Assembly: GCA_902531515.1 (NCBI GenBank)
Contig: CACAEJ010000002.1
Coordinates: 1 to 64,000, forward strand
Length of the DNA: 64,000 bases
Direction of reading: 5' to 3'
From: an uncultured Pseudohongiella sp.
Lineage (GTDB): Bacteria > Pseudomonadota > Gammaproteobacteria > Pseudomonadales > Pseudohongiellaceae
Shown here piece after piece: positions 4,978 to 62,214 of this stretch. The position numbers and the translations under genes were made by a program. Position 1 is the first letter of the stretch, and each line of letters opens with the position of its first letter. Under the pieces are notes generated by a model. That model ran no database searches. It had not been told where the DNA came from and was given only the letters and a program-made list of their open reading frames with translations.

Positions 4978-6333
4978 TTAGTCCTGTCCAGCTAATGATC
5001 GCGACTCTCTCTCCTTTCTATCGGCGACAAGCTTCTCATACCCCTCGTCATCGAGATGGGTAATCGCAAGCCATGCATGAGTCATTTCATCACCTGTTCT
5101 ACTCCCTCCAACGACCCACTGGTCGGGGTCTGGATTGTTGGGATTATCTGCAGTGTTGTCATACCATTGTTTAAGGACTAAGACAGCGCCTGCTGGAATC
5201 AACGGTGCTACATCTGGGTCATAGATGTGGCTATGGTGCCATGTGGCACTCCATTTAGAAATTTGGCTGATTTGCTCGGTACGACCAGTCTCAGGATAAA
5301 ATATCTCAAGGGATGCCGCGTTCATTCTTAGGTGTCCATGAGGCTGAAAGCTATCCAAACGAATCGGATGGTCAAAAGAGTGAAAACCTTGAGTCATCTG
5401 ATAACCGTTGGGTGGTATCACTAGATCGTCTTGCTCTTCAATTCTATAAAGAGCTAAATCTTGTTTGTAGATGTTCTCATTGCTTTCATACCCTTCCTCG
5501 TGAAACCAAAGGCCTATTTCAACAACATTATCCTTTATCACTTCACCTTGGGCTGTCGCACCGACGCCCCCAGGGTACATGTGAATACTCCATGCGATTT
5601 GCGCGCCGGCGGGGATTGTTCGACAAACTCCTTCGGGAACCATTTCGCCCCACTTACCCATGGCGTATTCAGTGAGCATACCTTGTCGATCAAGCTCACC
5701 TTCCTCATTTTCGAGGAGTACAGACGAGTTAGCGTGATGAACTACTGCTGCAGCATCGCCCCGAGGTTTCACTTGTACAGCCTTTATACAGCGATCGGAA
5801 GTAATTCCAGGATCAACGATTTCGTTGCTCCATAGATCGTTACCGCTTGCTGGTATGTCGTAAGAGTTTGACGGCACGATTAAATCTGGCTGACCTAACT
5901 GAGCCGCGAAATTCCACTCAGTTGGATCTCTTAGCTGGTAGGGGGGTGGGGAAGAGTCTGGGTCACCCAGAGGAGCTCCTTGCTCTACCCATGCGACAAT
6001 CTGCTCGATTTCCTCTTGCTCCAAGCGCCAATCACCTATTAGGTGTTGAATACCAATACCTTGATCATAAGCGTATGGAGGCATCTCTCTGTTAGCGACT
6101 TTGTAAGAAATTAAAGGTGCCCAAGGTCTAACTTGGTCATAGGTCTCAAATTGCATTGGACCGATACCACCATCTTGATGGCAGACGACGCAGTTTTCGT
6201 TGATTATCTGCCCTATTTGGCCGTTGTAGGTCAACTCATGTTCGCCGTCTTGGGCATATAAACTTGTTTGTAATCCGCAGGTTACAAAAGCTGCAACCAA
6301 AATACGTGTGCTGACTCTCCAAGTGCTTTTCAT
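4978..6333 (-). CDS. Exported c-type cytochrome fused to PHM-like (copper type II monooxygenase-like) domains; paralogue 1
   Basis: CVVCH heme motif; ordered HH (VVHHAN), H (SIHMYPGG), HxH (QPHGHLRM), M (GDEMTHAW) matching the ligand order of peptidylglycine alpha-hydroxylating monooxygenase. ORF extends to 6462, but the ATG at 6333 (MKSTWRVSTRILVAAF) gives a signal peptide. Confidence 0.82.
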   Translation of the reverse strand: MKSTWRVSTRILVAAFVTCGLQTSLYAQDGEHELTYNGQIGQIINENCVVCHQDGGIGPMQFETYDQVRPWAPLISYKVANREMPPYAYDQGIGIQHLIGDWRLEQEEIEQIVAWVEQGAPLGDPDSSPPPYQLRDPTEWNFAAQLGQPDLIVPSNSYDIPASGNDLWSNEIVDPGITSDRCIKAVQVKPRGDAAAVVHHANSSVLLENEEGELDRQGMLTEYAMGKWGEMVPEGVCRTIPAGAQIAWSIHMYPGGVGATAQGEVIKDNVVEIGLWFHEEGYESNENIYKQDLALYRIEEQDDLVIPPNGYQMTQGFHSFDHPIRLDSFQPHGHLRMNAASLEIFYPETGRTEQISQISKWSATWHHSHIYDPDVAPLIPAGAVLVLKQWYDNTADNPNNPDPDQWVVGGSRTGDEMTHAWLAITHLDDEGYEKLVADRKERESRSLAGQD

Positions 6334-6542
6334 CAATGTCTCCTTTATTTCAAGGTTATCCTGTTTCGTATCAAAATCTTTTTCGCCGGACCTTGGTTTT
6401 AAGCACATGAGTCTACCTTTTTTCACTTGTCTGAAAAAGACATATCTTCTAAAAAATTGCATTTTCGTAGATTAGTTAATCCTAAGAGATCATGCGATTA
6501 GACAGTCGTTAGAGGCTCTGGCTTGCAATTGGGACAGATACA

Positions 6543-6580
6543 AAAAAGCCGGATGATTTTGTTATCACCCGGCTTTTCTT
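6543..6580 (-). terminator. Intrinsic terminator downstream of the 6624 gene
   Basis: AAAAAAGCCGGATGA...TATCACCCGGCTTTTCTT hairpin. Confidence 0.75.
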
Positions 6581-6623
6581 ACTTACTATTTAGTTGCTTC
6601 TTTTGGACAAGTGACCGTAATTT

Positions 6624-7973
6624 CTAATCCTGTCCTGCAAGAGATCGTTGTTCTGCTTCCTTACGCTCAGCAGCTAATTTCTCATAGCCTTCATCATCCA
6701 AGTGAGTCACAGCAATCCAAGCATGAGACATTTCGTCGCCGGTTCGGCTACCACCATAAACCCATTGGTCTGGATCAGGGTTATTGGGGTTGTCTGCAGT
6801 GTTGTCATACCATTGCTTTATGACCAACACCGCTCCGACCGGCAGCAATGGTGCTACATCTGGGTCGTAAATATGGCTATGATGCCAAGTCGCACTCCAG
6901 TTAGAAATTTGACTCAACTGCTCGGTTCTTCCAGTTTCAGGGTAGAAAACCTCTAAAGAGGCAGCATTCATCCTAAGATGTCCATGTGGTTGGAAGCTAT
7001 CTATCCGAACAGGGTGATCCCAAGAATGGAAACCTTGAGTCATCGCGTAGCCATTTGGAGGCACAATCAAATTACCGTTCTCATAGCCTTCGCGTAATTG
7101 ATAGGCTTTAAGATCTTGTCGGTATGGGTTCGAAGTTTCTTCAAAGTCGTCTTCGTGAAACCAAATCCCGAGCTCGACAACATTATCCTTAACGGCTTCC
7201 CCCTGCGCAGTAGCACCAACTCCGCCCGGATACATGTGGATATCCCAGAATATACGGGAGTCGCCAGGCATTTCACGGCATACGCCTTCTGGCATTAACT
7301 CGCCCCACTTACCCATAGCGTATTCTGTAAGCTGGCTAAAATCTTCATAGTCGCCATCTTCATTCATTACTTCAATTGAAGGATTTGAGTGGTGTACAAC
7401 GGCTCTTGCATCGCCCCTTGGCTTAACTTGCATCGCCTTAATGCAGCGCTGATCGCTCAATCCCGTGTCTACGTAATGCTTGTGCCACAGGTCGTTACCG
7501 CCGGCGGGGATATCTATAGGAATGGAAGCAATAACAAGGTCTGGTTCGCCGAATTGCGGCTCAAAATTCCAAGCGTCTGATGCTGGAAGCTCTGGGGCTG
7601 TGGGGACTATATCTGCCGGCCCCATCGGTGATCCGCTGTTGACCCAAGCAACAACCGTATCGATTTCGTCTTGAGAAAGCCTCCAGTCCCCTTCTAAGTC
7701 TTGGATGCCAATACCATGATCGTAGGCGTAAGGAGGCATTTCTCTGCTTGCGACCTTAAGCTGAATCAGTGGCGCCCATGGGCGGACCTGATCATAGTTT
7801 TCAAATTGCATTGGCCCAATGCCACCTTCTCTGTGACACACGACGCAATTTTCATTGATTATCTGCGCTACATGAGTGTTGTAGGTGATTTCAGATTCTT
7901 GTGCGTTAGCAACACTAAAACCCAAAAGTGAAGCACAAGATAATAAGCCTATGATTTCCTTGATTTTTTTCAT
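6624..7973 (-). CDS. Exported c-type cytochrome / PHM-like protein; paralogue 2
   Basis: CVVCH; AVVHHSN, DIHMYPGG, QPHGHLRM, GDEMSHAW; very close paralogue of 8164-9510. Confidence 0.85.
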   Translation of the reverse strand: MKKIKEIIGLLSCASLLGFSVANAQESEITYNTHVAQIINENCVVCHREGGIGPMQFENYDQVRPWAPLIQLKVASREMPPYAYDHGIGIQDLEGDWRLSQDEIDTVVAWVNSGSPMGPADIVPTAPELPASDAWNFEPQFGEPDLVIASIPIDIPAGGNDLWHKHYVDTGLSDQRCIKAMQVKPRGDARAVVHHSNPSIEVMNEDGDYEDFSQLTEYAMGKWGELMPEGVCREMPGDSRIFWDIHMYPGGVGATAQGEAVKDNVVELGIWFHEDDFEETSNPYRQDLKAYQLREGYENGNLIVPPNGYAMTQGFHSWDHPVRIDSFQPHGHLRMNAASLEVFYPETGRTEQLSQISNWSATWHHSHIYDPDVAPLLPVGAVLVIKQWYDNTADNPNNPDPDQWVYGGSRTGDEMSHAWIAVTHLDDEGYEKLAAERKEAEQRSLAGQD

Positions 7974-8100
7974 TTCGTTAATCCTCTTAACAAGAAAAGG
8001 GGGATTTTTACAATAGTCCCTAGTCTACACCTTTCTGAGGTTGCGAAGAAGTACTGATGGGATTCAAACGCAATAATTTGTAATTTTATTACGCACAAAT

Positions 8101-8134
8101 AAAAAGGCCCACCAGCTTTAGCTGATAGGCCTTA
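8101..8134 (-). terminator. Intrinsic terminator downstream of the 8164 gene
   Basis: AAAAAGGCCCACCAGC-ttta-GCTGATAGGCCTT hairpin. Confidence 0.72.
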
Positions 8135-8163
8135 CTTATACAAAAAGTGCTTTACGCGACTGA

Positions 8164-9510
8164 CTAGTCTTGCCCAGCCAAGGATCGCTCCTCTCTTTCT
8201 TTGCGCTCAGCAGCTAACTTCTCATAGCCTTCATCATCCAAGTGAGTCACAGCAATCCAAGCATGAGACATTTCGTCGCCAGTTCGGCTACCGCCATAAA
8301 CCCATTGGTCTGGATCAGGGTTATTGGGGTTATCTGCAGTGTTGTCATACCATTGCTTGACGACCAAAACTGCCCCAACTGGGAGCAATGGTGCTAAGTC
8401 TGGGTCATAAATATGGCTATGATGCCAAGTCGCACTCCAGTTAGAAATCTGACTTATCTGCTCGGTTCTTCCAGTTTCCGGATAGAAAACCTCTAAAGAG
8501 GCAGCATTCATCCTAAGATGGCCATGCGGCTGGAAGCTATCTATCCGAACTGGGTGATCCCAAGAATGGAAACCTTGAGTCATTGCATAGCCATTTGGAG
8601 GCACAATCAAATTACCGTTCTCATAGCCTTCTCTCAAAGGGTAAAGCTTGAGATCTTGCCTATATGGGCTTTCCGCCACTTCAAATTCCTCGTCGTGGAA
8701 CCAAATACCCATTTCGACAACGTTATCTTTAACCGCTTCACCTTGCGCAGTAGCACCAACTCCGCCGGGATACATGTGGATATCCCAATATATACGGGAG
8801 TCGCCAGGCATTTCACGGCATACGCCTTCTGGCATTAACTCACCCCACTTACCCATAGCGTATTCTGTAAGCTGGCTAAACCGCTCATAGTCGCCAGTTT
8901 CCGGGTTCATGACGTCTAAAGATGGATTTGAGTGGTGTACAACGGCTCTTGCATCGCCCCTTGGCTTAACTTGCATCGCCTTAATACAGCGCTTTTCAGT
9001 CAACCCTGTATCCACATAGTGTTTGTGCCATAGGTCGTTACCGCCGGCGGGGATATCTATAGGAATGGAAGCAATAACAAGGTCTGGTTCGCCTAACTCT
9101 GGCTCAAAATTCCAAGCTTCAAGGCTTGGTAGCACAGGCTCAGGAGGCACTATATCTGCGGGTCCCATCGGTGATCCGCTGTTGACCCACGCAACAACCG
9201 TATCAATTTCGTCTTGAGAAAGTCTCCAATCCCCTTCTAATTCTTGGATACCAATACCATGATCGTAGGCGTAAGGAGGCATTTCTCTATTTGCAACCTT
9301 AAGCTGAATCAATGGCGCCCAAGGGCGGACCTGATCATAGTTTTCAAATTGCATTGGCCCAATGCCACCTTCTCTGTGGCACACGACACAGTTTTCATTT
9401 ATGATCCGCGCAACATGAGTGTTGTAGGTAACCTCGTCGCTCTGCGCCAGAACTAGGCCTGCTGAGGCCAGAGCAGCAAGGGCTGCCAAAAAACGTTGCA
9501 TTAATTTCAT
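8164..9510 (-). CDS. Exported c-type cytochrome / PHM-like protein; paralogue 3
   Basis: Same motifs as 6624-7973; signal peptide MKLMQRFLAALAALASAGLVLAQ. Confidence 0.85.
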   Translation of the reverse strand: MKLMQRFLAALAALASAGLVLAQSDEVTYNTHVARIINENCVVCHREGGIGPMQFENYDQVRPWAPLIQLKVANREMPPYAYDHGIGIQELEGDWRLSQDEIDTVVAWVNSGSPMGPADIVPPEPVLPSLEAWNFEPELGEPDLVIASIPIDIPAGGNDLWHKHYVDTGLTEKRCIKAMQVKPRGDARAVVHHSNPSLDVMNPETGDYERFSQLTEYAMGKWGELMPEGVCREMPGDSRIYWDIHMYPGGVGATAQGEAVKDNVVEMGIWFHDEEFEVAESPYRQDLKLYPLREGYENGNLIVPPNGYAMTQGFHSWDHPVRIDSFQPHGHLRMNAASLEVFYPETGRTEQISQISNWSATWHHSHIYDPDLAPLLPVGAVLVVKQWYDNTADNPNNPDPDQWVYGGSRTGDEMSHAWIAVTHLDDEGYEKLAAERKEREERSLAGQD

Positions 9511-9729
9511 GCTTTTCTCCCAAATTACAGATTTGTGGAATTCACCGAATAATACTAATTCTGGTTGGCTAAAAAGTCCATAGAATGTGTTGATTTCGTT
9601 ACGGTTTATGCAACAAATTGAAACTACACTTCACGAGTCTTAGCTAGGGTAATATTTATTTGTTTCGCTTCTGCAAGATATTGGCGGGAATATACCCGGG
9701 CAATTGCCATGATGCCGGGATTTGTCGTA

Positions 9730-10677
9730 TTACTCGACCATTACCCTTTGCCAAACGTTCGTCCAGCAGCATTGATCTCCGTTTGAACTGTCTGGGCCGC
9801 GATGAACATCTACTTTGGTCCTTATAATATATTCTCCGGGCTCAGAGAAGGTTGCATAAACTCTTCCAAGTCCTGCCGAGCCTTCGATCCTCAACTCGTT
9901 AGGATCTGGTTCCCGGAAAAAGCGGAACCTTGGATTATCCTCATCGTACGGGTTTTCCTCGACTTCAGTATCTGGGTGGCGAGTGAATTCTACGCTACCG
10001 GGGCCTTGATGTTTTTCAAAGGAGACACCCATAGGAATAGCTTCCTCAAAACGAGGATCTTCCGGGTCTCGTTCTGCTGGGTCAGTTGCATTAATAATCA
10101 GCTCCACAGGAATACCAACTTGAGCGGGGTTTCGAGGATAATCTTCCACATCGCCCACCAAGCCATAAGGGGGCCCCCGTTGTGCTCCATTCTCTCCAAT
10201 ACCAACCATCGGCTGCATTCCGCCTTGAGGACGCGGTAAAATAAAGTCTAATTCGTAAGCAGACGAACCCCTGCGTCCAGGGACTTTTAAAGTTTCACTT
10301 TCACCGGTGGTCAAATACCACCAGACATCATTGTCTTGTTGCGACTCTGGAACAGTTACCGCGAATGCGCCTACAGTTCTCCCCGCAGGGAAATATGTCG
10401 GCTGTTCGCCATCGAACTCTGCCGGCTCTATATAGTTTTCTTCGCCTAGCGGAATTTCCACAGCTTCGTCGTTACGGTTTATGATTCCAAATGAGAAACT
10501 GGTTGTGCCATCTGGGTTGGCAATCCATCCCTCTAAAACAGGAATTATTGGCATACCGCCAGGAGGTGCCAAACTTAAAAATCGGGCATTATCAGCCGAT
10601 TGCCCGTTTACGGTTAAAACCGCTGAAGAAAAAATACCTAGTATTGTTGTTGCTATGAATTTTTTATGAAGTAGCAT
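9730..10677 (-). CDS. Exported protein of unknown function ending in CCWTN motif; paralogue of 41408-42280
   Basis: Signal peptide; shared blocks NYIEPAEFDGEQPTYF and C-terminal CCWTNVWQRVMVE with the 41408 protein (NFIEPAEFDGVQPTHF, CCWTNGFLRVDVSE). Confidence 0.78.
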   Translation of the reverse strand: MLLHKKFIATTILGIFSSAVLTVNGQSADNARFLSLAPPGGMPIIPVLEGWIANPDGTTSFSFGIINRNDEAVEIPLGEENYIEPAEFDGEQPTYFPAGRTVGAFAVTVPESQQDNDVWWYLTTGESETLKVPGRRGSSAYELDFILPRPQGGMQPMVGIGENGAQRGPPYGLVGDVEDYPRNPAQVGIPVELIINATDPAERDPEDPRFEEAIPMGVSFEKHQGPGSVEFTRHPDTEVEENPYDEDNPRFRFFREPDPNELRIEGSAGLGRVYATFSEPGEYIIRTKVDVHRGPDSSNGDQCCWTNVWQRVMVE

Positions 10678-10904
10678 TCAATGTCTCTCCCCAAAAATCG
10701 GTAAGGCTATGCCATAATTCCGATGGTAAACCACGCGAATTTTTAGTCCACGATGTAAAATTTTTATTTATCTATTGAAACCCATTAATTAGGGGCGCTA
10801 GCATAGCGACCAAATCAACTCACGTCCAGTTGCAGCACCTCGAAAATGATGGCCTTATGACTTTGTTTTTTACAAATTGTTACAGCCTGACTCTGAGAAA
10901 ACAG

Positions 10905-12581
10905 ATGATGAAATTATTAATAGCCAGCTCTATCGTTTTAGGCTCGATGTTTTCAACAGCGGTTTATTCGGCACTGGATCGGGTTATCGATTTTGCGCTC
11001 CTGGATGAAGTCGGAGTGTTCCATCAGTTAAGCAGATATGAGCATAAAGAGGCTGTCGCGCTGATGTCATTTGATCAAGCATGTGAATCGATGCCCATGA
11101 TGCTTGCCGAATATAGTTCTTTAGTGAAAGAATTTTCCAATCTTGACATTGAATTTCTTCTAATTGACTCCGCTGATTTAGGAAGGGAAGCTTTAATTAG
11201 TCTAGGTTTGAATATACCCATTTTAGAGGATGACGGGCAGCTGGTGTCTGAGTCTTTGGGAATTGAAAACGCTGGCGAAGTTTTCATACTGAACCCAGAC
11301 AGGTTATCTCTGTATTTTCGAGGGCCCGTATCGTTGGAACTGAAAGACTCGTTAAGCTCTTTGAAAACTCTCCAAGATACTCTTGAGTTAGAGTCAGGGG
11401 ACTGCAGCATCGAGTACCCTGTTAAGATGGCGCATGAGCTTAAAGCACCCGATTATGCTTCGGAGATTGCCCCTATCATTATTGAGAATTGCGTTGCTTG
11501 CCACAGTCAAGACGGTGTGGGCCCTTTCGCATTTGATAGTTACATAATGGTGCTTGGTTGGTCTCCGATGATTCGCGAGGTGCTCTTGAATAAGCGAATG
11601 CCTCCCATGCAAGTTGATCCCTATGTTGGATACTCTCATAACGCACGATATCTTGATACTAATCAGCTGCAGGCTCTTATTCACTGGATTGATGCAGGCG
11701 CACCTCAGGGAACTTCAGCAGTCGATCCTTTGGAGAGTTTTAGCCCAGAAGGAGAAAACCACTGGGCGTTGGGTGAACCAGATTACATTGTATTTACTAA
11801 GAGTCATGATGTGCCTCCTACAGGAGTTCTCGACTACATTTATGATGAGGTTGATCTGCCCTTCGAAGAGGACAAATGGCTGCGTGCGGTTGAGTTCAAA
11901 GCCGGAAACTCAGCTGTTCTTCATCATTTAATGACCTTTGTCACAGAGCCAAGTGAAGATTTTTGGGGTAAAGAAAGAAGCCAAACTTCGGCAACAAGAA
12001 GATTTGTCGAAAGCTATTCTCCTGGGAAAAGCAATGTAAAGATATTCAATAAAGGAACAGGTGTCTTTATACCAAAAGGGAATGGTTTATCAATGCAATT
12101 TCATTACGTCACAAACGGGCAGCGTACAACTGATATCTCTAGATTGGGGTTGTATTTTAGTGAGGAAAAAGACCTGCGTGAGCGACTGGTTCAGGCGGTT
12201 TCTACACGGTTTGTCTTGCCGCCAAACGAGCCGAACTTTGAATTGCGCACTGATTTTGTGTTTGAATCCCAGGTGGTGCTTACCGGTGTACGCGCAAGAA
12301 TGAACTATCGTGGGAAAAGGATGAAATTCTCAATTGAAGAACCTAGCGGAGTAGTTAAAGATATTTTCAGCATTCCTGCTTATAACTATGGCTGGCAACC
12401 TCATTACGTTTTGGATGAACCTATAACTCTTGAATCGGGTACAAAAGTGCACGTAACAGGCGCTTTAGATAATTCAATTTCCAACCCAACAAATCCAGAC
12501 CCAGAAAAAGAAGTAACTTTTGGTTTGAATAGTTGGGATGAGATGTTCACCGGGTACTTCACATTTTATAAGACACGTTAA
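10905..12581 (+). CDS. Redoxin-like domain + c-type cytochrome + PHM-like domain protein (divergent copper site)
   Basis: N-terminal thioredoxin/redoxin-like region (SFDQACESMPMML), CVACH heme motif, HH (AVLHHLM), H (MQFHY), M (WDEMF). The second HxH is replaced by RMN. ORF track start 10830; ATG at 10905/10908 gives a signal peptide. Confidence 0.75.
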   Translation: MMKLLIASSIVLGSMFSTAVYSALDRVIDFALLDEVGVFHQLSRYEHKEAVALMSFDQACESMPMMLAEYSSLVKEFSNLDIEFLLIDSADLGREALISLGLNIPILEDDGQLVSESLGIENAGEVFILNPDRLSLYFRGPVSLELKDSLSSLKTLQDTLELESGDCSIEYPVKMAHELKAPDYASEIAPIIIENCVACHSQDGVGPFAFDSYIMVLGWSPMIREVLLNKRMPPMQVDPYVGYSHNARYLDTNQLQALIHWIDAGAPQGTSAVDPLESFSPEGENHWALGEPDYIVFTKSHDVPPTGVLDYIYDEVDLPFEEDKWLRAVEFKAGNSAVLHHLMTFVTEPSEDFWGKERSQTSATRRFVESYSPGKSNVKIFNKGTGVFIPKGNGLSMQFHYVTNGQRTTDISRLGLYFSEEKDLRERLVQAVSTRFVLPPNEPNFELRTDFVFESQVVLTGVRARMNYRGKRMKFSIEEPSGVVKDIFSIPAYNYGWQPHYVLDEPITLESGTKVHVTGALDNSISNPTNPDPEKEVTFGLNSWDEMFTGYFTFYKTR

Positions 12582-17832: not shown

Positions 17833-18891
17833 TTGTTGGGGGCTGTAATGAAAATCAACAAACTAATCTTAATAACATTGTTTTCGAGCCTGAGTGGTTT
17901 GGTGGCTAGCCAGTCTAATGGCGACTACGAGGTCCCCCGGACCGAATGGGGCCAGCCAGATTTGCAGGGGGTATGGAATTTCTCATCCGACATCCCAATG
18001 CAAAGACCGCAGCGTTTTGGAACTCAGGAATTTCTGACCCAAGAGGAAATTCAAGAGCGAAGGGACGCGATAATGGCGGGAAGGGCAGCTGCAGATGAGG
18101 CGGCGGCAAGATTGAATGTTCCCGATGTTCCAGACGAAGGCTCCAATCCCGGCGGATATAATGATTTCTGGTTTGAAACCGCGGGTCTTGGAGATGTAGT
18201 AAGGACATCCCATATCGTTTATCCGGAAGATGGACGTCAGCCAGACTATGTCGAAGGTGCTAACATTCAGTTTGGCGGGCTTGGTCCGGATGTTCCAGGT
18301 AATCGTCCTGTTAGATATGTAGTAGGGGGAATCGACAAGACAGGTCCTGAGGATCGGGGACTCTCTGAGCGATGCATAGTGGGCTTCAACTCTGGCCCGC
18401 CGTTTACGCCCAGTTTGTATAATAACAATCTGCAGATCATTCAAAATAAAGATACAGCAGTAATCATGACTGAGATGATACATGATGCACGAATTGTTCC
18501 TTTGACAGAGAAGCCAGCATTAGATGATGACATTCGACTGTGGTCGGGTGATTCAAGAGGTTATTGGGATGGAGATACCTTAGTTGTAGAAACTAAGAAT
18601 TTTAACGGTAGTCGCCAATCCTTTGGTGCTGCGGGTCAAAATTACGATGCTGTGCTAACGGAAAAGTTTACAAGAGTTGCTTACGATACGGTGGATTATG
18701 AATTTACCGTCGATGACCCAGGCACTTTTACCGATAAAATTACTGCCGTTGTGCCAATGATCAAGATGGCTGGGCAGATTTACGAGTATGCTTGTCATGA
18801 AGGCAACTATGGAATGATAAACACTTTAAGAGGTGCTCGGGTTGAAGAGCGACTTATCTCTGAAGGCGTTGAAATTGGTGAGCGTGATTAA
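17833..18891 (+). CDS. Exported protein of unknown function ('TEWGQPDLQGVW' family); paralogue of 40355-41308
   Basis: Signal peptide; RTEWGQPDLQGVWNFSSDIPMQRP and DIRLWSGDSRGYWDGDTLVVETKNF shared with the 40355 protein. Confidence 0.8.
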   Translation: MLGAVMKINKLILITLFSSLSGLVASQSNGDYEVPRTEWGQPDLQGVWNFSSDIPMQRPQRFGTQEFLTQEEIQERRDAIMAGRAAADEAAARLNVPDVPDEGSNPGGYNDFWFETAGLGDVVRTSHIVYPEDGRQPDYVEGANIQFGGLGPDVPGNRPVRYVVGGIDKTGPEDRGLSERCIVGFNSGPPFTPSLYNNNLQIIQNKDTAVIMTEMIHDARIVPLTEKPALDDDIRLWSGDSRGYWDGDTLVVETKNFNGSRQSFGAAGQNYDAVLTEKFTRVAYDTVDYEFTVDDPGTFTDKITAVVPMIKMAGQIYEYACHEGNYGMINTLRGARVEERLISEGVEIGERD

Positions 18892-18978
18892 TTAGCCCTA
18901 GGTTCATAAGAAAGATTGCTGAAGACTAATCGATCGAAAGCTTAAAAAAGAAAATTTTGATTATCAAATTAAGGTTTA

Positions 18979-19806
18979 TTGATGAAAATAATAGTTAAAA
19001 CTGTAATGATCCTACTAGCTTCTTTATTCATCGCTGGAACGTCTGGCGCTCAAGTATTGGATGAATTTCCGCGCACACCAGATGGAAAGCCTGACTTTAG
19101 CGGCATCTGGCAGTCAATGACCACAGCTCATTACGATGTGGAGCCTCATGCGGCAGCCTATGGACCTTATCCTCGTGAGATGGGAGCACTGTCAGCAAAA
19201 CCAGCTAGTCTCGGAATTGTCGAGGGAGGACGTATTCCCTATAACGAGGTTAGTAGAAGACAGCGAGAAGAGAATGCTCGGGATGCGATAACGAAGGATC
19301 CTCTTGCGAAGTGTTTCATGCCTGGTGTTCCTCGGGCCAACTATTTGCCGTTTCCATTTCAAATAGTGCAGTCCAGAGACGTTGTTTTGTTGGCATATGA
19401 GTTCGCAGAGTCGAATCGAATTGTGTATGTTGACCAACCCGAAATTGTTTCTCAAGTAGATGCTTGGATGGGTCACTCAAATGCTACATGGGAAGGAGAT
19501 ACGCTAGTAATAACAGTTACTGGTCAGATGGAGGATACCTGGTTTGATCGGGTTGGTAATTTCCACAGCTTTGAGATGGTAGTTGAGGAGAGGTGGACCC
19601 CGGGAGGGGCAAACCATATTAATTACTCAGCAACTATAACGGATCCTAATACTTTTACGGAGCCGTGGACCGTGAGCTTTCCTCTGTATAGACATGTTCA
19701 AGAAGATATGCAACTGCTTGAGTTCAAGTGTGTTGAGTTTGCCGAGGAGTATATGTACGGTGAGTGGCGTAAGGAGGGAACGCCTATTGGTAATCCTAAC
19801 CAATAG
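18979..19806 (+). CDS. Exported protein of unknown function, related ('TPDGKPDFSGIW') family
   Basis: Signal peptide; PRTPDGKPDFSGIWQS, WMGHSNATWEGDTLVITVTG; C-terminal FKCVE. Confidence 0.78.
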   Translation: MMKIIVKTVMILLASLFIAGTSGAQVLDEFPRTPDGKPDFSGIWQSMTTAHYDVEPHAAAYGPYPREMGALSAKPASLGIVEGGRIPYNEVSRRQREENARDAITKDPLAKCFMPGVPRANYLPFPFQIVQSRDVVLLAYEFAESNRIVYVDQPEIVSQVDAWMGHSNATWEGDTLVITVTGQMEDTWFDRVGNFHSFEMVVEERWTPGGANHINYSATITDPNTFTEPWTVSFPLYRHVQEDMQLLEFKCVEFAEEYMYGEWRKEGTPIGNPNQ

Positions 19807-38711: not shown

Positions 38712-39215
38712 TTACTGGTATCGGATAGGTGCGGTTGTAACTCGCACTCTCGATTCCACGTAGGTTATCGAGTCTCCGTCAATACTGCTGAACCAATGCG
38801 GCGTACCCGGTTGCAAAACCAGTATGTCACCCTCGCTTACCTCCCTGGCGAGGCCACCCTGAATCCCGTGAAGCGTTCTAATAACATCATCGCTGGTCTG
38901 CTCGGCTAGCGGAGTGATCAAAAGTCCGCCTGTTACCAATGTGCCGCTGCCTTCTAGGATTCTATAGATTTCTACACTGTAGGGGTGCATGACGGAGTAC
39001 TGCGGTAAGCCACTCATTCGGCGTCTAACTGAAATTCCGGGTGAAATACTGACTGACACGCCGGCGGCAGAGGTCGAATTGCGAGCTGCCTCGTCAAGCT
39101 CGGCGAGTATCTCCGGCCCTGGTTTATAAATTGCGGGAGGTGCACCTGATTGTTGAGCGAAGCTGTTGATAAAGAAAAAGGCAGCGGCTAATCCGAGTGC
39201 GGCTCTAATTTTCAT
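38712..39215 (-). CDS. Exported cupin-like protein
   Basis: Signal peptide MKIRAALGLAAAFFFINSFAQQ; VEIYRILEGSGTLVTGGLL...VSEGDILVLQPGTPHWFSSIDG. Confidence 0.8.
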   Translation of the reverse strand: MKIRAALGLAAAFFFINSFAQQSGAPPAIYKPGPEILAELDEAARNSTSAAGVSVSISPGISVRRRMSGLPQYSVMHPYSVEIYRILEGSGTLVTGGLLITPLAEQTSDDVIRTLHGIQGGLAREVSEGDILVLQPGTPHWFSSIDGDSITYVESRVRVTTAPIRYQ

Positions 39216-39223
39216 CTGAAATG

Positions 39224-39361
39224 TTAGGCTCTTGCGTTGACCATGAGGAATCCCAGCAGGGCCGTCTCGATGGCATCCGCAAACCCCGGTATAAAAATTA
39301 AACTAAACACGATTACGGCGGAAAGGATTCCGCAGAGCTTTAAATATTTTTTGTTATCCAT
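39224..39361 (-). CDS. Small membrane-peptide paralogue 1 (45 aa): MDNKKYLKLCGILSAVIVFSLIFIPGFADAIETALLGFLMVNARA
   Basis: Manual reverse-strand translation; gapless alignment with the two neighbouring ORFs; GGAGAG 9 nt before ATG. Not in the supplied ORF track (below its length cut-off). Confidence 0.8.
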   Translation of the reverse strand: MDNKKYLKLCGILSAVIVFSLIFIPGFADAIETALLGFLMVNARA

Positions 39362-39395
39362 TCGTTTTAACTCTCCGCTTGGTTTGAAAATGCTA

Positions 39396-39545
39396 CTAAT
39401 ACGGTCTCTCAGCCCTGGCGTTATTCCCCAGCCAGGAAAGCATTCTTGTTTCGACAGTGTCTGACAATCCAGGTATAAAAAGAATACTCATAGACGTAGC
39501 TAGCACCACAGCAGCGCAAAGCATCAGGTAATTTTTAGTTTTCAA
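39396..39545 (-). CDS. Small membrane-peptide paralogue 2 (49 aa): (TTG)MKTKNYLMLCAAVVLATSMSILFIPGLSDTVETRMLSWLGNNARAERPY
   Basis: Manual reverse-strand translation; GAGAGG upstream of TTG; shares [KN]YL.LC / IPGL.D..ET / ML.WLG.NA with its neighbours. Confidence 0.8.
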   Translation of the reverse strand: MKTKNYLMLCAAVVLATSMSILFIPGLSDTVETRMLSWLGNNARAERPY

Positions 39546-39607
39546 ATGAAGACCTCTCTATTACTAATATCTGTAAGACTATCTTTTTCTTATCTAAGCG
39601 AAACCTT

Positions 39608-39757
39608 TTAGGTTGACATCAACTCTCCCGCATTGCTCCCCAGCCATATGAGCATTCCAGTCTCTATTGATTCAGATAGCCCGGGTATTAAAAGAATACC
39701 CATTACTGTCATAAGCGCAATAGCGGCACAAAGTTTAAGATACTTTTTAGTTTCCAA
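39608..39757 (-). CDS. Small membrane-peptide paralogue 3 (49 aa): (TTG)METKKYLKLCAAIALMTVMGILLIPGLSESIETGMLIWLGSNAGELMST
   Basis: Manual reverse-strand translation; GAGGAA Shine-Dalgarno overlapping the stop of the upstream gene; close similarity to paralogue 2. Confidence 0.82.
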   Translation of the reverse strand: METKKYLKLCAAIALMTVMGILLIPGLSESIETGMLIWLGSNAGELMST

Positions 39758-39768
39758 TTTCGAGTTCC

Positions 39769-40317
39769 TCAGTTAACTTCCCTGGGGACAAGCTCGAATA
39801 CCCAAGATTGTCCGGCCTCAATGCCGGCCCGTGTTCCGGCAATGGCCTGAGCGCTGGCGCTGGGGGCGCCCCCGTATTTCGTGATGAGCTTTGCAGCAAC
39901 GCCGTCAAGTATGTCTCCTTCTTTGATTCGCACTAAAGTTCTGGGATATCTGACCCCATCTACTCGCAATACTCCCTGATTGTTGCCTTCGTCGGCCTCA
40001 AACGCCCACTCCTTCCAGAGCTTTCCTAGCATCGTTGTCATGTAGCCCGAAATGATAAAGAGCCTGCCATCACTTTCTAACACGTATATTAGTCGTGAGG
40101 CCATTGGGTCATTCAACTGAAGTTCTACCAGGCGAATGTCATCGGTAAAGCTCCAGTCCGGTTCGGGTCCTGTATGCAGCCGTCCGGTGGTCATCTCCCC
40201 ACCAGGGAATAATATCGACGGACCGTCAGCGTTTCTGTTTTCGACTCTCAAGGTTGCCATACCCACTGCCGGTATTAGTATTAGTATTCCAAGTACCTGA
40301 AGGACTATCTTTTTCAT
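39769..40317 (-). CDS. Exported hypothetical protein
   Basis: Signal peptide MKKIVLQVLGILILIPAVGMA; ORF sits in the same-strand block between the 40355 gene and the small peptides. Confidence 0.7.
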   Translation of the reverse strand: MKKIVLQVLGILILIPAVGMATLRVENRNADGPSILFPGGEMTTGRLHTGPEPDWSFTDDIRLVELQLNDPMASRLIYVLESDGRLFIISGYMTTMLGKLWKEWAFEADEGNNQGVLRVDGVRYPRTLVRIKEGDILDGVAAKLITKYGGAPSASAQAIAGTRAGIEAGQSWVFELVPREVN

Positions 40318-40354
40318 AATGTCATATCCGTGCTAAAAATTTTAAGTTTGTAAA

Positions 40355-41308
40355 TCAGTTCTCTGATGAGTTCTGCTCGAGTGCTCTCGCTTCTTCAGCG
40401 CGAGCTCCCCTTAGAATGTACGTCATTGCATAGTTCCCCTCGTGACAGGCGTACTCATACTGCTTGTAGTCGGCCAATCGAGGCATCGGCCTTATTGCAG
40501 TCCAGGGCTGCGTGTAAACAGTTGGGTCCTCAACAGTGAATGAGTAGTCGATCATGTCCTCACCGACCCGCCTGAATCTCTCGACCGCAACGGTGTTCCG
40601 GGAGGAAGGGAAACGGTGACGTGTCTTTTCGCTGAAATTAGCAGTCCGGACTACTAATGTATCTCCGTCCCAGTACCCTCGAGAATCGCCGTTCCACTGC
40701 CGAATGTTGTCGTGGAGTTGGGGTCGATCATCAATCGGAATAATCCGCACGTCATGAATCATCTCTACATGGATCGCGACAAAATTTTCATTCTGTACGA
40801 TGTGGTAGGAATTGTTGTAGCCAGACGAAACTGGCGGGACGCCATGGTAGGATATGCACCTATCCCAGTTCGTTCGATCCAGCCATGAGTCTGCATCATG
40901 ATCGCGCAAATATTCTGCCCGCTCGCGCTGGCTGGCTATAGCCGCTTCAGTAATTGGCAGGCGCCCGTTGGGTGGATCGACAATGAGAGAGGTTCTAAAA
41001 TCTGCGGAAATCTCGCCTCTGTCAAACCACTGATAGTTATAGCTCCCAACATCACCCGGCCTATCGGGAGAATCCTGTTGGGTGTTGGCGAAAATTTGGG
41101 CTGCTTCCTCGGGAGTATAGAACTCCTTATCCCCAAGACGCTCAGGTCTTTGCAAAGGGGTCAAACTAGCATATGACCACATGCCTGAAATGTCTGGATC
41201 TCCCCAGGGAGTGCGTTCGCTGTAAGAGCTGTCCGTTTGGGCAACAACGTTGCCTGCAAGTAAAATGGTTGTAACAACAACTAGCAGAGTGATTGACTTT
41301 GCTTTCAT
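40355..41308 (-). CDS. Exported protein of unknown function ('TPWGDPDISGMW' family); paralogue of 17833-18891
   Basis: SERTPWGDPDISGMWSYASLTPLQRPERLGDKEF and DNIRQWNGDSRGYWDGDTLVVRTANF. Confidence 0.8.
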   Translation of the reverse strand: MKAKSITLLVVVTTILLAGNVVAQTDSSYSERTPWGDPDISGMWSYASLTPLQRPERLGDKEFYTPEEAAQIFANTQQDSPDRPGDVGSYNYQWFDRGEISADFRTSLIVDPPNGRLPITEAAIASQRERAEYLRDHDADSWLDRTNWDRCISYHGVPPVSSGYNNSYHIVQNENFVAIHVEMIHDVRIIPIDDRPQLHDNIRQWNGDSRGYWDGDTLVVRTANFSEKTRHRFPSSRNTVAVERFRRVGEDMIDYSFTVEDPTVYTQPWTAIRPMPRLADYKQYEYACHEGNYAMTYILRGARAEEARALEQNSSEN

Positions 41309-41407
41309 TTTTATTCTCCGTCAATAGTTAGACAGGTGAGCTAAGCGTATCACAGCAGAAGGGTGTGCAAGAAGTCAGTTTCAAGGAATTTGTAACTGCT
41401 GTGGTTT

Positions 41408-42280
41408 TTACTCTGAAACGTCAACGCGAAGGAACCCGTTGGTCCAGCAGCAGTGAAATTCAAATCCATATGTAGGTTCCCTCCGTCGCTCGGTATCGTT
41501 TATTGCCTGGATTCGAAGTAGGTAACTTCCGGGCTGACTAAAGGTCGCTGTTGATTCTATAACCCCCTCAGAGACTTCAAGTCTTGCCTCAGATTCCGAG
41601 AATACGACTGCATTGGGGCCCTGATGCAGGGTCCAGTTAACCCATGTGCCAGGCTCACTATGTCGAATTCGAGCAATAAGATTGACTGGTTCTCCCACTC
41701 GGGTTCGTCTCGGACCCTCGAAGAGACCGCGTCTTCCCCGGAAACTGGGGGGGTTGTCATTCAGGCTAAGGTAGGGCGCTGAAGTATCTCTACCCGAGGT
41801 TTCTTCTTCGTCTAGCACATAAGAGGGGATTAGAGTTCCCGGAACAGACAACTTTGTGCCTTGGGTTTGTAAAGTCCATATCACGTCATTCATACCGAAA
41901 TTCTCGCTGACGATTACTGAAAAAGCGCACCAGTGTCGTCTGAATTCACGAGTTAGTTCAGGGTCAGGGATCGTGTCAAAGTGAGTTGGTTGGACGCCAT
42001 CAAATTCAGCGGGTTCTATAAAGTTTTTTGCGCCAAGGGGTACGTCAATTTCTTGTTCGAAATTCATATTGAAATATCCGAAGCAGAGAGTGAAAGAACC
42101 GTCGTCGTTGGGGAACCAGCCGTCAAAAAGAGGTACTACGTTTTGCCCGTCCGCACGGAGCGGTTCTTCGTAAATGGGGCTAAATACGTTTGAAGTCTGA
42201 GCAGTGCTCAAAGAGATGCCGCTCACAAGGACACAAAGCAGGAATCCTCTGCTTCCAACTAATCGCATCAAGATGTTCAT
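41408..42280 (-). CDS. Exported protein of unknown function ending in CCWTN motif; paralogue of 9730-10677
   Basis: Signal peptide; PLGAKNFIEPAEFDGVQPTHF; C-terminal HCCWTNGFLRVDVSE; 4-bp ATGA overlap with the upstream cytochrome/PHM-like gene. Confidence 0.8.
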   Translation of the reverse strand: MNILMRLVGSRGFLLCVLVSGISLSTAQTSNVFSPIYEEPLRADGQNVVPLFDGWFPNDDGSFTLCFGYFNMNFEQEIDVPLGAKNFIEPAEFDGVQPTHFDTIPDPELTREFRRHWCAFSVIVSENFGMNDVIWTLQTQGTKLSVPGTLIPSYVLDEEETSGRDTSAPYLSLNDNPPSFRGRRGLFEGPRRTRVGEPVNLIARIRHSEPGTWVNWTLHQGPNAVVFSESEARLEVSEGVIESTATFSQPGSYLLRIQAINDTERRREPTYGFEFHCCWTNGFLRVDVSE

Positions 42281-43611
42281 TGATCTCGCGACGCAGTCAT
42301 CCTCGCCTGACGTTTTGAGATTAGTTCTTCGTACTGTTCATCCGAGAGATAGGTAACACCAAGCCAAAGGTGCGACATTTCATCCACACCCCGTTGACCA
42401 AAAACTACCCATTGTCGCGGATCAGGATTGTGCGGATTTTGTGAGGTATTGTCCCAGGTCGAGGTAATTTTCAACATAGTGCCAGCTGGTAACAGCGGGG
42501 CCGAGTCTTCGGTAAATTCGTAATTTATTTGCCAGGAATGATCATACTTATCAACTCTCGCCAGCATTTCGCGACGACCGTCTGGGTATATAGCTTCAAG
42601 CGATTGCGCCCGACCTCGCATATGCATGTGGGGACGGAAACTGGTAATCAAAGCAGGTCGCTTCAGAACTCGGAATCCTTGTTGAGACTTCACAGAGTTT
42701 GGCGGTAGCAACAGGTCGTTTGCCCATAAACCACCGGGGCCAGAATCGGCAGCAAAGAACTGTTCACCCCGTGTTTGAAATTCAGGCTTATAACCTTTGG
42801 GATATAACCAAACAGCGGCCTCTGCCTGCTCGTTAGGCACTACTTCGCTGATGGGGAAATAGTGTAGATTCCAGTTAATAGTTCCCTCTGGGTAGATCAG
42901 CATACCCGTCCCTTCAGGGAATCGATCACCACCTTTTCCAACTCCCTGTCTGCCCACGGGGCCTGATGCTCTATTTCCGTTACCATCGTTTGATCTTAGT
43001 TGAGCGTGACCATGGTGGAGAACCTTGACGCCCAAAGGATAGGAACCTTTAAGTTCCGTCGCTCTAACATAGCGAGGTTCGTCAATCAGTCCTGCGAAAG
43101 ACGTATTACGAACCCACCATTGGTCCTGGGCATTGGCAGTAACGGTATAGGGTGGTGATTTGACTACGAAATCGGGCTCCCCCAATTCAGAGGCGAGTTG
43201 CCATTCGGACGCATCTGGCAGTTTTGGTTGAGCTGGCGTAAGTGCTGGGTCACCTTGGGGAGCCCCAGATTTAGCCCACTGAACTATTAATGAAACTTGT
43301 TCTTCTGATAGAGAGACATCGTTGTTATAGGTCTGAATTCCAACGGCTTTATCTAGATGCCAGGGCGGCATCTCTCGACGCTCTACCTTATAACTAATCA
43401 GAGGTGCCCAAGGTTGCGTTTCCTCAAAGGTAAGCAGAGACATAGGCCCAATCCCATCGGGATTATGGCAACTCACACACTTATCAAAAATTATTGTCGC
43501 AACATCCTTGCTATAGGTTACCTTCTCATCACTCGCCAAGGTGCCCTGACTTAATATCAGAGATGAAAAAAAACAATAAAAAAATGTTTTTAGCCATGTA
43601 GAGTTATTCAT
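42277..43611 (-). CDS. Exported c-type cytochrome / PHM-like protein; paralogue 5
   Basis: CVSCH heme motif; VLHHGHA, NLHYFP, RPHMHMRG, VDEMSHLW. Track ORF extends to 43749; ATG at 43611 (MNNSTWLKTFFYCFF) starts the signal peptide. Confidence 0.83.
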   Translation of the reverse strand: MNNSTWLKTFFYCFFSSLILSQGTLASDEKVTYSKDVATIIFDKCVSCHNPDGIGPMSLLTFEETQPWAPLISYKVERREMPPWHLDKAVGIQTYNNDVSLSEEQVSLIVQWAKSGAPQGDPALTPAQPKLPDASEWQLASELGEPDFVVKSPPYTVTANAQDQWWVRNTSFAGLIDEPRYVRATELKGSYPLGVKVLHHGHAQLRSNDGNGNRASGPVGRQGVGKGGDRFPEGTGMLIYPEGTINWNLHYFPISEVVPNEQAEAAVWLYPKGYKPEFQTRGEQFFAADSGPGGLWANDLLLPPNSVKSQQGFRVLKRPALITSFRPHMHMRGRAQSLEAIYPDGRREMLARVDKYDHSWQINYEFTEDSAPLLPAGTMLKITSTWDNTSQNPHNPDPRQWVVFGQRGVDEMSHLWLGVTYLSDEQYEELISKRQARMTASRDQ

Positions 43612-43794: not shown

Positions 43795-44934
43795 ATGCTA
43801 TCTAACATTTATAAAGTCTTTCCGGTTTTGGTCATCACCATTCTCGCCGCTACCAATGTAGCGTTGGGTGCTGAGCGTGAGGCAATCGTTGTGGCGAATT
43901 TGGGGCCGCAGGTCGGGGAACAGGTGCCAGATTTTCAGCTCTCTGATCAATTCGGTGAGATTCACAATCTTGAATCGGTCATGGGGCCGAACGGAGCAAT
44001 GCTTCTCTTTCATCGATCAGCAGATTGGTGACCTTACTGTAAAGCGCAGCTCGTGGAGCTGCAAAGCCAACTAGAGACTCTCCAAGAGCAAGGCATAGGC
44101 GTAGCTGCGATAAGCTATGACTCCGTCGAGGTTGTTGCTGACTTTGCGGAAAGGCGAGGCATAACCTTTCCTTTGCTGGCTGATAGTGATTCATCTGTTA
44201 TATCGGATTTCGGCATTCTTAACACAGTCGCAGCTGAGGGAGTCGGCGATAATGCGGACGATCCTAGCGTAAAAGCAGATGTGGCAAGATATGTTTCGGC
44301 TTTTGGCGCTAACCAAATGATAGTTGGCACGCCTTATCCCGGAACGTTCATGGTAGATGGTGAGGGGAGAGTAACCTCGCGTTTTTTTGAAGAGTTCTAC
44401 CGAGAAAGGAACACAACTACAAACGTGATGCTGAAATTGGGGATGGGCCTGTCTCCAATAGCTGCCGTCGAGGGTGAAACGGCGCATCTAAAGTTTACGG
44501 CTTATCCGTCTAATACTACCGTGACTGTCGGAACTCGATTCTCCTTGGCTTTAGATGTCACACCTGGCCCTGATATGCATGTGTATGCTCCGGGCGCCGA
44601 GGAAAAAGGATATCGCGTGATCGGTTTTAATCTGGATAAACCAGAATTAGCGCGTGTTGAGCCTGTCAACTATCCCGAGTCTGAAATATATTACTTTGAA
44701 CCGCTGGACGAGCATGTTCCAGTCTACCAGGAAAAATTTACCATTCTTCAGGAAGTGGTTATGAACGGGGATGCAGAGACTGAGGAAATTATGTCGACGT
44801 TGGATGCTTTAACTTTGACGGGAACGTTGGATTACCAAGCCTGCGATGATGCAATTTGTTTCCTGCCACAATCTATTCCTGTTTCTTTCACTGTTGATCT
44901 GGAGATGCCTGATAGGCAGCGCGCCAACCGATAA
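43795..44934 (+). CDS. Probable selenocysteine-containing redoxin (SADW-U-PYCKAQL) fused to DsbD-alpha-like C-terminal domain; TGA at 44029-44031 read as Sec
   Basis: The two listed ORFs (43795-44031, 44053-44934) are in the same frame, separated only by TGA at the position of the first Cys of W-C-P-Y-C. Downstream sequence PYCKAQLVELQSQLETLQEQGIGVAAISYDS is canonical redoxin. SECIS-like hairpin at 44046-44062. Confidence 0.85.
44046..44062 (+). promoter_or_regulatory. Candidate bacterial SECIS element
   Basis: GCAGCTC-GTG-GAGCTGC perfect 7-bp stem, 3-nt loop beginning with G; loop starts 21 nt after the TGA. Confidence 0.7.
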
Positions 44935-59612: not shown

Positions 59613-60803
59613 TTAGTGTAGTTCCGAGTCAGGCCACGGGGCACCTGTCCTATGCTCACTGAGTGGTTTAAGTCCCTGGAAAAGAAACTTTTGAGCACGT
59701 TTACCCTCGTAAGTTTCAGTTGTGTATACATTACCCTCGGAATCCGTAACAATGCTGTGTGTTCCAAAAAATAACCCCGGCTGTCTCCCGCCGTCACCGA
59801 ACTCGGCAAGTACCTCTAGTGATTCTCGCTCCAGAATGTGCACTTTAAAATTTGCGCCATCTGCTACGTAAATAAACTCTTGATCTTCATCATGGGAAAA
59901 GGAAATATCCCAAGTAGACCCTGCTAACGTCAAAGGAGCCACTTGACCTTCCTTAACAAATGTTCCATCAGGTCGAAAGACTTGGATGCGATCTGCCCCG
60001 CGGTCACAAACATAAATCAAGCCGTCATTTGAGGGCTCCGCACAATGGACGGGACCCACGAATTGTTGTGGAAGCGGGGCATTGGGATCGTAGACTACTC
60101 TTTCGTCGATAGGTTCATTGCCATAAGCACCCCAAAAACGTTTAAAGGCCCCCGTTGCTACATCGACCACTGCTACGCGCTTATTTCCATAACCGTCAGC
60201 AAAGTATGCCTCGTTAGCAGAGTGATCGATTGCGATCTCGGCAACTCGCCCGAAGGACACTGTGCTCAGGCTATCAATAGGCTCCCCCGGGAGACCAATT
60301 TCCCGAACAAACTGACCGTCTCGCGTAAAAACCAGCACATGAGAGTCACCACTTCCATTGCCTCCAATCCAAACATTTCCGTCAGTGCCAACTTCGATGC
60401 CGTGATTGGATTCTGGCCATGTGTATCCCTCTCCTGGCCCACCCCATGCGTTGATTAGATTGCCTGCACTGTCAAACTCCAAGATCGGCGGCGCCGCCGT
60501 GCAGCACTCCGCGCGACCTAGATCTAAGCCTAGTTCTTGACTCATGAACATCGAGTCTTGATCTCGATGAACTACGAAAAGATGATCTCGCTCGTCTATA
60601 GCGATTCCAATAGTTCTGCCCATAATCCACTTGTTGGGTAATGGCTGCGGCCAATAGGGGTCCACTACAAACTTGGGCGCTAAACGATCGTTATTAATGG
60701 CTTCGGCTGTCTTCTGCAAAGCTTGTTGGCTAATACCGAGAATGGTGAAAACTGAAATTAGTAAACAAGAGCACAACAGAGCATTTCTTTTTCTTTTGTT
60801 CAT
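59613..60803 (-). CDS. NHL-repeat beta-propeller, peptidyl-alpha-hydroxyglycine alpha-amidating lyase (PAL)-like; paralogue A
   Basis: WPESNHGIEVGTDGNVWIGG, YFADGYGNKRVAVVD, GPVHCAEPSNDGLIYVCDRGADRIQVF, FGTHSIVTDSEGNVYTTET. Track ORF to 60827; ATG at 60803 preferred (signal peptide, GGGAAAG upstream). Confidence 0.85.
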   Translation of the reverse strand: MNKRKRNALLCSCLLISVFTILGISQQALQKTAEAINNDRLAPKFVVDPYWPQPLPNKWIMGRTIGIAIDERDHLFVVHRDQDSMFMSQELGLDLGRAECCTAAPPILEFDSAGNLINAWGGPGEGYTWPESNHGIEVGTDGNVWIGGNGSGDSHVLVFTRDGQFVREIGLPGEPIDSLSTVSFGRVAEIAIDHSANEAYFADGYGNKRVAVVDVATGAFKRFWGAYGNEPIDERVVYDPNAPLPQQFVGPVHCAEPSNDGLIYVCDRGADRIQVFRPDGTFVKEGQVAPLTLAGSTWDISFSHDEDQEFIYVADGANFKVHILERESLEVLAEFGDGGRQPGLFFGTHSIVTDSEGNVYTTETYEGKRAQKFLFQGLKPLSEHRTGAPWPDSELH

Positions 60804-60961
60804 CGTTACTTTCCCATGGCAGAACAAGGCTACTTAGTGCGATAAACAGTAACACCATTTCTTGAATAGAGAAACTTTAATTGAATTAGTGATGCTTTTC
60901 GCACGTAAAATTCCCGCGGTCCAAATCTTGGTTTGGTTTTGCGTCGGAAGATCCAGATAAA

Positions 60962-61000
60962 TAAAAAGCCCAACTACCAAAGAAGCAGTTGGGCTCTTGT
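60962..61000 (-). terminator. Intrinsic terminator downstream of the 61021 gene
   Basis: AAAAAGCCCAACT-accaaagaagc-AGTTGGGCTCTT hairpin. Confidence 0.8.
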
Positions 61001-61020
61001 TTCAGCTCTATGAGGAGTTT

Positions 61021-62214
61021 TTACAGCTCTTCAGCTGGCCATGTTGGTGCTCTGTCACGCACTGTAACTGGCTGCATACCTTGGTACAGGAATTTTTGTA
61101 TTCGCTTGCCTTCATAGGTCTCAGTTGTGTAAATGTTACCCTGAGAGTCAGTTGCTATACTATGAGGTGCGAAAAACAATCCTGGCTGTCTACCACCATC
61201 ACCAAATGTATAAAGTACTTCTAAAGATTCGCGATCTATTATATAGATTTTGAAGTTTTGACCATCTGCTAGATAAAGAAACTCTTGATCTTCATCAGGA
61301 GAGAAGTCGATATCCCATGTAGAACCTTGCGCTAAGGTAGCAGGAGAGATAATTACTTCACGAACATAGGTACCATCGGTACGGAACACCTGAATCCTGT
61401 CGGCTCCTCTGTCACAGACATACACTAGCCCATCGTTTGATGGAATAGCGCAGTGTACTGGACCACGGAATTGCTGTGGTCCGGGCTCGCCGGGCGTATA
61501 AGTTACGTCAGCATCGTCGTCTGGTCGGTTCCCGTATGCGCCCCAGTACCTTTTGAAGGCTCCGGTCGCAAGGTCAACTACAGCGACTCGTTTATTACGA
61601 TAACCGTCAGCAAAATAGACCTCGTTATTAGCAGCATCGATTGCTATTTCAGCGACTCTACCGTAGGACGTTGTGCTGTTGCTGTCCATCTCGGCTTCGG
61701 GGACTCCGACAGTTCGAACGTATTCACCGTCTCGTGTAAAAACAAGCACGTGAGAATCTGGACCACCGTTTCCGCCGATCCAAATGTCTCCATTTGGAGC
61801 TACATCGATACCATGGTTAGACTCTGGCCAAGTGTATGGAGCTCCTTCTTCTGGTCCACCCCATGCGTTGATGAGGTTTCCTTCCAAATCGAACTCTAAA
61901 ATTGGTGGTGCTGGTGTGCAGCACTCAGATACTCCGGAATACAGCCCGATCTCTTGAATTCTCATGAACTGCGATTCCGTATTTCTGTGAACCGCGAAAA
62001 TGTGATCTCTCTCGTCTACATCTACTCCAATAGTATTTCCCTGAACCCAATGATTTGGAAGTGGCTTTGGCCACAAAGGATCCACTAGGAAATGTGGTGC
62101 CATGACGTCGTTATTAGCCGCGACGACAGGCTCTTGCAGTTGGGATTGGCCAATCTGTAGAGCCGCCAAAGCAACTAATAGACCTGCTCCTATCAACACC
62201 TTGATCTTTGTCAT
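61021..62214 (-). CDS. NHL-repeat beta-propeller, PAL-like; paralogue B
   Basis: WPESNHGIDVAPNGDIWIGG, YFADGYRNKRVAVVD, GPVHCAIPSNDGLVYVCDRGADRIQVF, FAPHSIATDSQGNIYTTET. Confidence 0.87.
   Translation of the reverse strand: MTKIKVLIGAGLLVALAALQIGQSQLQEPVVAANNDVMAPHFLVDPLWPKPLPNHWVQGNTIGVDVDERDHIFAVHRNTESQFMRIQEIGLYSGVSECCTPAPPILEFDLEGNLINAWGGPEEGAPYTWPESNHGIDVAPNGDIWIGGNGGPDSHVLVFTRDGEYVRTVGVPEAEMDSNSTTSYGRVAEIAIDAANNEVYFADGYRNKRVAVVDLATGAFKRYWGAYGNRPDDDADVTYTPGEPGPQQFRGPVHCAIPSNDGLVYVCDRGADRIQVFRTDGTYVREVIISPATLAQGSTWDIDFSPDEDQEFLYLADGQNFKIYIIDRESLEVLYTFGDGGRQPGLFFAPHSIATDSQGNIYTTETYEGKRIQKFLYQGMQPVTVRDRAPTWPAEEL

Follow-up and report, generated by a model that had tools for sequence, protein, structure and literature searches.

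A mosaic gene cluster in a marine Pseudohongiella contains an undescribed pair of a predicted split-barrel protein and a single-helix membrane micropeptide

Small membrane proteins that act as subunits or regulators of enzymes, such as the CydX-like and KdpF-like peptides, are a known class; they have 40-50 residues and a single transmembrane (TM) segment, and their genes lie directly behind that of a large partner. A gene cluster with this kind of arrangement was analyzed in a 64,000-nt stretch of DNA (the window) from an uncultured Pseudohongiella sp. (contig CACAEJ010000002.1), whose 1.92 Mb assembly is 67% complete. Behind a gene for a 182-residue protein, h182, the cluster encodes peptides of the same size class, and other parts of it recall the copper type II ascorbate-dependent monooxygenases (PHM/DBM), the calycins and the split beta-barrel proteins.

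The cluster consists of eight consecutive minus-strand open reading frames (ORFs) encoding, in order of transcription, a PHM-like cytochrome, the CCWTN protein, the PWGDPD protein, h182, three mini-peptides and a cupin. The preliminary description had the frames, their coordinates and their spacings right, including the 4-nt ATGA overlap of the PHM-like and CCWTN genes (42277-42280), the 11 nt from h182 to the next peptide and the 8 nt ahead of the cupin. It was also correct in finding signal peptides or TM segments in nearly all of them, as most of the proteins are exported or membrane-bound, and in calling the system undescribed, in that no Pfam or NCBIfam family accounts for h182, PWGDPD or the peptides. 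Scans of all eight proteins against both collections gave these no name, and 28 members of the peptide family gave no match, with scattered E values of at least 0.012 (Pfam) and at least 0.03 (NCBIfam). The cupin (38712..39215, minus strand), a small exported protein whose gene closes the cluster in this orthologue group, matches Cupin_2 with E 1.4e-5, slightly below the curated Pfam cut-off. The 99-nt gap between the CCWTN and PWGDPD genes, a possible transcript break, was absent from the preliminary description. Promoter and terminator scans of the cluster gave results at chance level, neither supporting nor opposing a single eight-gene transcript. In abstracts on PHM-like bacterial cytochromes, DUF2255, the OM182 clade and small membrane proteins, no description of such a cluster was recognized.

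For comparison, h182 sites were taken from related genomes (OM182/Pseudohongiella-like marine Gammaproteobacteria, most of them assembled from marine metagenomes or single cells), and the other cluster genes were located there by tblastn. In this gene-neighborhood check, which had been proposed beforehand, the order PHM-CCWTN-PWGDPD-h182-peptide(s, one to three)-cupin recurred in other species at ~63-95% protein identity, in full at L047, L048/L049, L050 and L052 and for the most part at L055. Several of these species (L047-L050, L052) have a convergent PQQ dehydrogenase gene behind the cluster and a divergent redoxin gene with an RraA-like gene in front. Because gene order is conserved in related species, the cluster is not a chance arrangement. 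In the closest relatives (L044, L046, L051), and likewise in L056-L058, it is present without PHM-CCWTN, so that it stands above chance yet is no fixed unit. Conversely, two loci (L195, L196) read PHM-CCWTN-PWGDPD-peptide-peptide-cupin, with h182 cleanly missing, and the other cluster genes are missing from most of 80 loci with the h182-peptide pair, where neighbors are oriented oppositely in about half; the next larger gene upstream faces away in 32 and the one downstream converges in 31. Three units make up this mosaic cluster: PHM-CCWTN, PWGDPD, and h182 with its micropeptides. One dedicated exported pathway, in which the PHM-like cytochrome would oxidize a substrate, the CCWTN, PWGDPD, h182 and cupin proteins would act next and the peptides would be membrane anchors, is in keeping with the loci that retain all or most of the order, with the short gaps, and with peptides that stay beside PWGDPD and the cupin even after loss of h182. 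It is distinctly unlikely, however, given close relatives without PHM-CCWTN and the occurrence of both PHM-CCWTN and h182-peptide elsewhere without the rest. Of the one exported system first described, the co-travel of the genes in close relatives therefore stands, but not its fixed, single nature.

The divergent redoxin gene of the window (43795-44934, plus strand) reads as a single frame through an internal TGA (DW-U-PYCKAQL); it probably encodes a selenoprotein, which standard ORF callers break into two frames. TGA occupies this codon in 14/14 distinct sequences among the matches listed (13 clear orthologues), and a tRNA-Sec scored above the cut-off in six of nine genomes of the genus. Another redoxin-like frame (L076, 8598, plus strand) has a TGA within the motif LFYRGHW-U-PFCRR.

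The PHM-like protein (42277..43611, minus strand) has a signal peptide, a c-type heme motif (CVSCH) and, after it, a region of two domains carrying HH, H, HxH and M residues. It shares with PHM/DBM the conserved series HH...H...HxH...M, with a weak match to the C-terminal Pfam model, and differs from them by its N-terminal c-type heme domain and its pairing with the CCWTN protein. In the alignment of PHM-like sequences (A3), H199, H200, H250 and M412 are invariant and H328 and H330 nearly so. These residues, which we take to be the equivalents of the PHM ligands on the strength of homology to Pfam-positive paralogues, make up the copper-ligand set of three His at one site and two His plus Met at the other. 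The gene itself scores 13.1 bits against Pfam Cu2_monoox_C, below the cut-off of 23; two paralogues just outside the window score 24.5 and 23.5 bits, and the match to the first of these (E 2e-39) makes it a clear homologue. A PDB sequence-profile search with the PHM set gave no useful match and did not reach solved PHM, which does not argue against membership. The original CxxCH/PHM-like reading was thus right in kind, combining a c-type heme motif with a PHM-like ligand set, and the protein is predicted to be PHM-type copper-monooxygenase-like, with putative hydroxylase activity.

The partner of this gene encodes the exported CCWTN protein (41408..42280, minus strand), with a weak PKD-like domain (Pfam PKD, E 4e-4). 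The PHM-CCWTN pair recurs in either gene order, at 8164-10677 of the window and at L064 in this genome, and at L095, L112, L113 and L116 in relatives, standing there without the remaining cluster genes. The CCWTN protein, first presented as novel, is not unique: it has paralogues at 9730-10677 and on contig C7, and some paralogues lack the motif. On the minus strand at 4978-10677, three tandem PHM-like cytochrome genes (4978-6462, 6624-7973, 8164-9510) adjoin the CCWTN paralogue (9730-10677). A PHM-like gene at 10830-12581 (plus strand) is fused to a redoxin-like N-terminus and has lost the HxH motif. Shortly past the window end, on contig C2 (L188, 127-3535), two redoxin-cytochrome-PHM fusions score above the Cu2_monoox_C cut-off. 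Two adjacent, similar NHL-repeat-like genes at 59613-62214 (minus strand) are reminiscent of peptidyl-amidoglycolate lyase.

The PWGDPD protein (40355..41308, minus strand) is exported and belongs to a large family, with ~20 paralogues in the source genome (23 matching stretches), strikingly many for an assembly of 1.9 Mb; two more family genes lie side by side at 17833-19806 (plus strand). It is predicted, with modest confidence (pLDDT 72.5), to be a calycin-like barrel of FABP/lipocalin type: Foldseek gave E 3.2e-3, and in VIA FABP5 reached Z 10.6 while many FABP/CRBP rows were tied at about 10. Unlike calycins, it has ~317 residues, is exported and is without a sequence match. Ahead of the gene lies a conserved block (41309..41360, minus strand) that reads TGCTGTGATAC..., followed by a ribosome-binding block of the GTGACGGAGAATA type; the latter is conserved with or without PHM-CCWTN. 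At sites without PHM-CCWTN, the cluster begins with PWGDPD, beside a divergent gene, and PWGDPD there requires a promoter of its own. The conserved block is compatible with such a promoter and was not reported by the consensus promoter scan.

The fold of h182 (39769..40317, minus strand) was modeled with AlphaFold2 from 31 sequences (pLDDT 83), giving a single hydrophobic N-terminal helix followed by a barrel. The best Foldseek match was 8d4w (E 1.6e-4), all top rows being F420, FMN or heme split barrels, and VIA gave Z 10.4 to 2fur (rmsd 3.3 over 120 residues), 10.3 to 1rfe, 9.8 to Ddn, and 9-10 to HutZ and similar proteins; these are matches of a predicted structure at 8-15% identity. Pfam returned weak matches to DUF2255 (best E 0.0014, in 3/31 members) and to PNPOx_N (0.014, in one), and the h182 set found no useful counterpart in a PDB sequence-profile search. 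The protein is therefore a predicted membrane-anchored split beta-barrel with an FMN/heme/F420-binder fold. The anchor region itself is poorly modeled (pLDDT <50 at residues 22-28), and the helix looks uncleaved, since by eye no signal-peptidase motif is common to all members; the barrel would, we infer, lie at the outer, periplasmic face of the membrane. Compared with the split beta-barrel superfamily (PNPOx-like, FDOR/Ddn, HugZ/HutZ, DUF2255), which it resembles in predicted fold, h182 has the N-terminal membrane helix, a probable exported location, a dedicated downstream micropeptide and no clear sequence-family match. F420 was considered as a cofactor and is unlikely: a search of nine genomes of the genus, eight with a completeness of 97-100%, found no CofD (PF01933), which also speaks against placing h182 among the F420-dependent reductases (FDOR/Ddn). 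A flavin or heme is accordingly the likelier cofactor, if there is any.

The three mini-peptides lie on the minus strand at 39608..39757 (49 residues, TTG start), 39396..39545 (49 residues, TTG start) and 39224..39361 (45 residues, ATG start, adjoining the cupin), each with a single TM segment. Peptides behind h182 have 42-49 residues and are real genes: median dN/dS is 0.11 over 448 pairs, some of which are the same contig twice, and a Shine-Dalgarno-like motif precedes 95% of first peptides. In these peptides, a charge of +1.4 precedes and -1.2 follows a hydrophobic helix, after which comes a shorter, moderately amphipathic segment. All three tandem peptides first described are present, but that wording hides that each belongs to a family linked to h182. 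In a tree of multi-peptide loci, of low support at 45 residues, the pre-cupin copy occupies its own branch across species, and peptides 1 and 2 of the window group with the first peptides of the nearest species; the orthologue of peptide 2 is the first peptide of L080/L081, and peptide 1 branches with peptide 2 and its orthologues. The grouping of these two peptides suggests a recent duplication, with the same low support. The peptides differ from CydX-like and KdpF-like proteins in belonging to another sequence family and in having as partner a single-helix split barrel rather than a polytopic complex.

A peptide lies downstream of h182 in 80/84 distinct loci (within 700 nt; median gap 10 nt, usually <20 nt), so that four close h182 copies are without a recognizable one. 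A profile built from 28 peptides found no free peptides in the flanks of these 84 loci, and when six genomes were searched whole, with coordinate lists matched, 15/15 peptides with E <= 1e-3 abutted h182 on the same strand. Distant h182 paralogues (L171, L176, L181, L206, L208) had no recognizable peptide on the coding strand. Ten peptides whose h182 was missing among the matches listed were fetched: three had an intact h182, one an h182 in two pieces (frame break) and three an h182 cut by a contig end; one peptide was itself at a contig end, and two (L195, L196) followed PWGDPD with h182 truly missing. The peptide thus needs no h182 in cis; a strictly obligate pairing is ruled out by these two loci, and the pairing is claimed as 'nearly always'. 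The two proteins also co-evolve, their distance matrices correlating at r = 0.79 against a maximum of 0.15 in 1000 permutations. Within the genus, h182 was found in 83/84 genomes (one to nine copies each) and the peptide in 75/84; h182 was found in 3/62 other genomes sampled from the same order and was absent from 368/368 others drawn from the class. The module hardly occurs outside this genus, and h182 with its 45-residue membrane peptide is an undescribed pair, present in several copies per genome in one marine group.

A toxin-antitoxin-like or selfish pair spreading by self-copying might be suspected from a hydrophobic, single-TM peptide of toxin-like size and from the occurrence of several pairs per genome, often stand-alone and in differing contexts. 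It is very improbable because of the selection and duplication pattern: purifying selection is strong, the trees match over divergent species, and the peptide reaches three copies without duplication of its partner and is kept where h182 is lost. Moreover, no mobile-gene context was noted, and h182 is present in 83/84 species of the genus. It is also conceivable, though unlikely, that the peptide acts as a regulator instead of a subunit: translated from the mRNA it shares with h182, this small single-pass protein would tune h182, or else a membrane protease or transporter. Its duplication without h182 suggests variation in dosage or target, and it persists without h182 in cis; regulators are common among known small membrane proteins of similar size, according to the abstracts of two articles (PMC11539335, PMC2789325). 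A near-constant partner and tight co-evolution, however, favor a structural role.

The reading of the locus that we prefer, at slightly less than even confidence, is a mosaic operon whose genes encode exported accessory proteins of oxidative metabolism and whose core is a portable redox module of h182 and a one-helix peptide subunit. In this module, the split barrel would be held at the outer face of the inner membrane by its N-terminal helix, and the peptide would be the dedicated small membrane subunit of this periplasm-facing redox protein. Being single-pass, with its N-terminus inside and a short C-terminal helix outside, it would pack its TM helix against that of h182, and its outer helix, lying on the membrane, would position or stabilize the barrel. 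The barrel may bind flavin or heme, and h182 might catalyze, or give electrons to, a reductive step whose substrate is handled by neighboring oxidases, namely the PHM-type copper monooxygenase and the PQQ dehydrogenases. More tentatively, h182 and its micropeptide may represent a new kind of split-barrel redox enzyme, bound to the membrane and equipped with a dedicated one-helix subunit, that has been multiplied and exchanged among oxidative operons in a single marine gammaproteobacterial genus; duplicated peptides would then tune or diversify the same enzyme.

Micropeptides are difficult to detect, and it is harder still to identify their partners. In this case, near-constant pairing, selection and agreement between trees point to the likely partner of a new family of 45-residue membrane peptides in more than 80 species, which makes the role of the peptide directly testable. 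To our knowledge, the periplasmic oxidative metabolism of this marine group, with its copper monooxygenases and quinoproteins, is largely unexplained. If the proposal is true, it would place a split-barrel redox protein at the outer face of the membrane in an abundant and mostly uncultured marine group.
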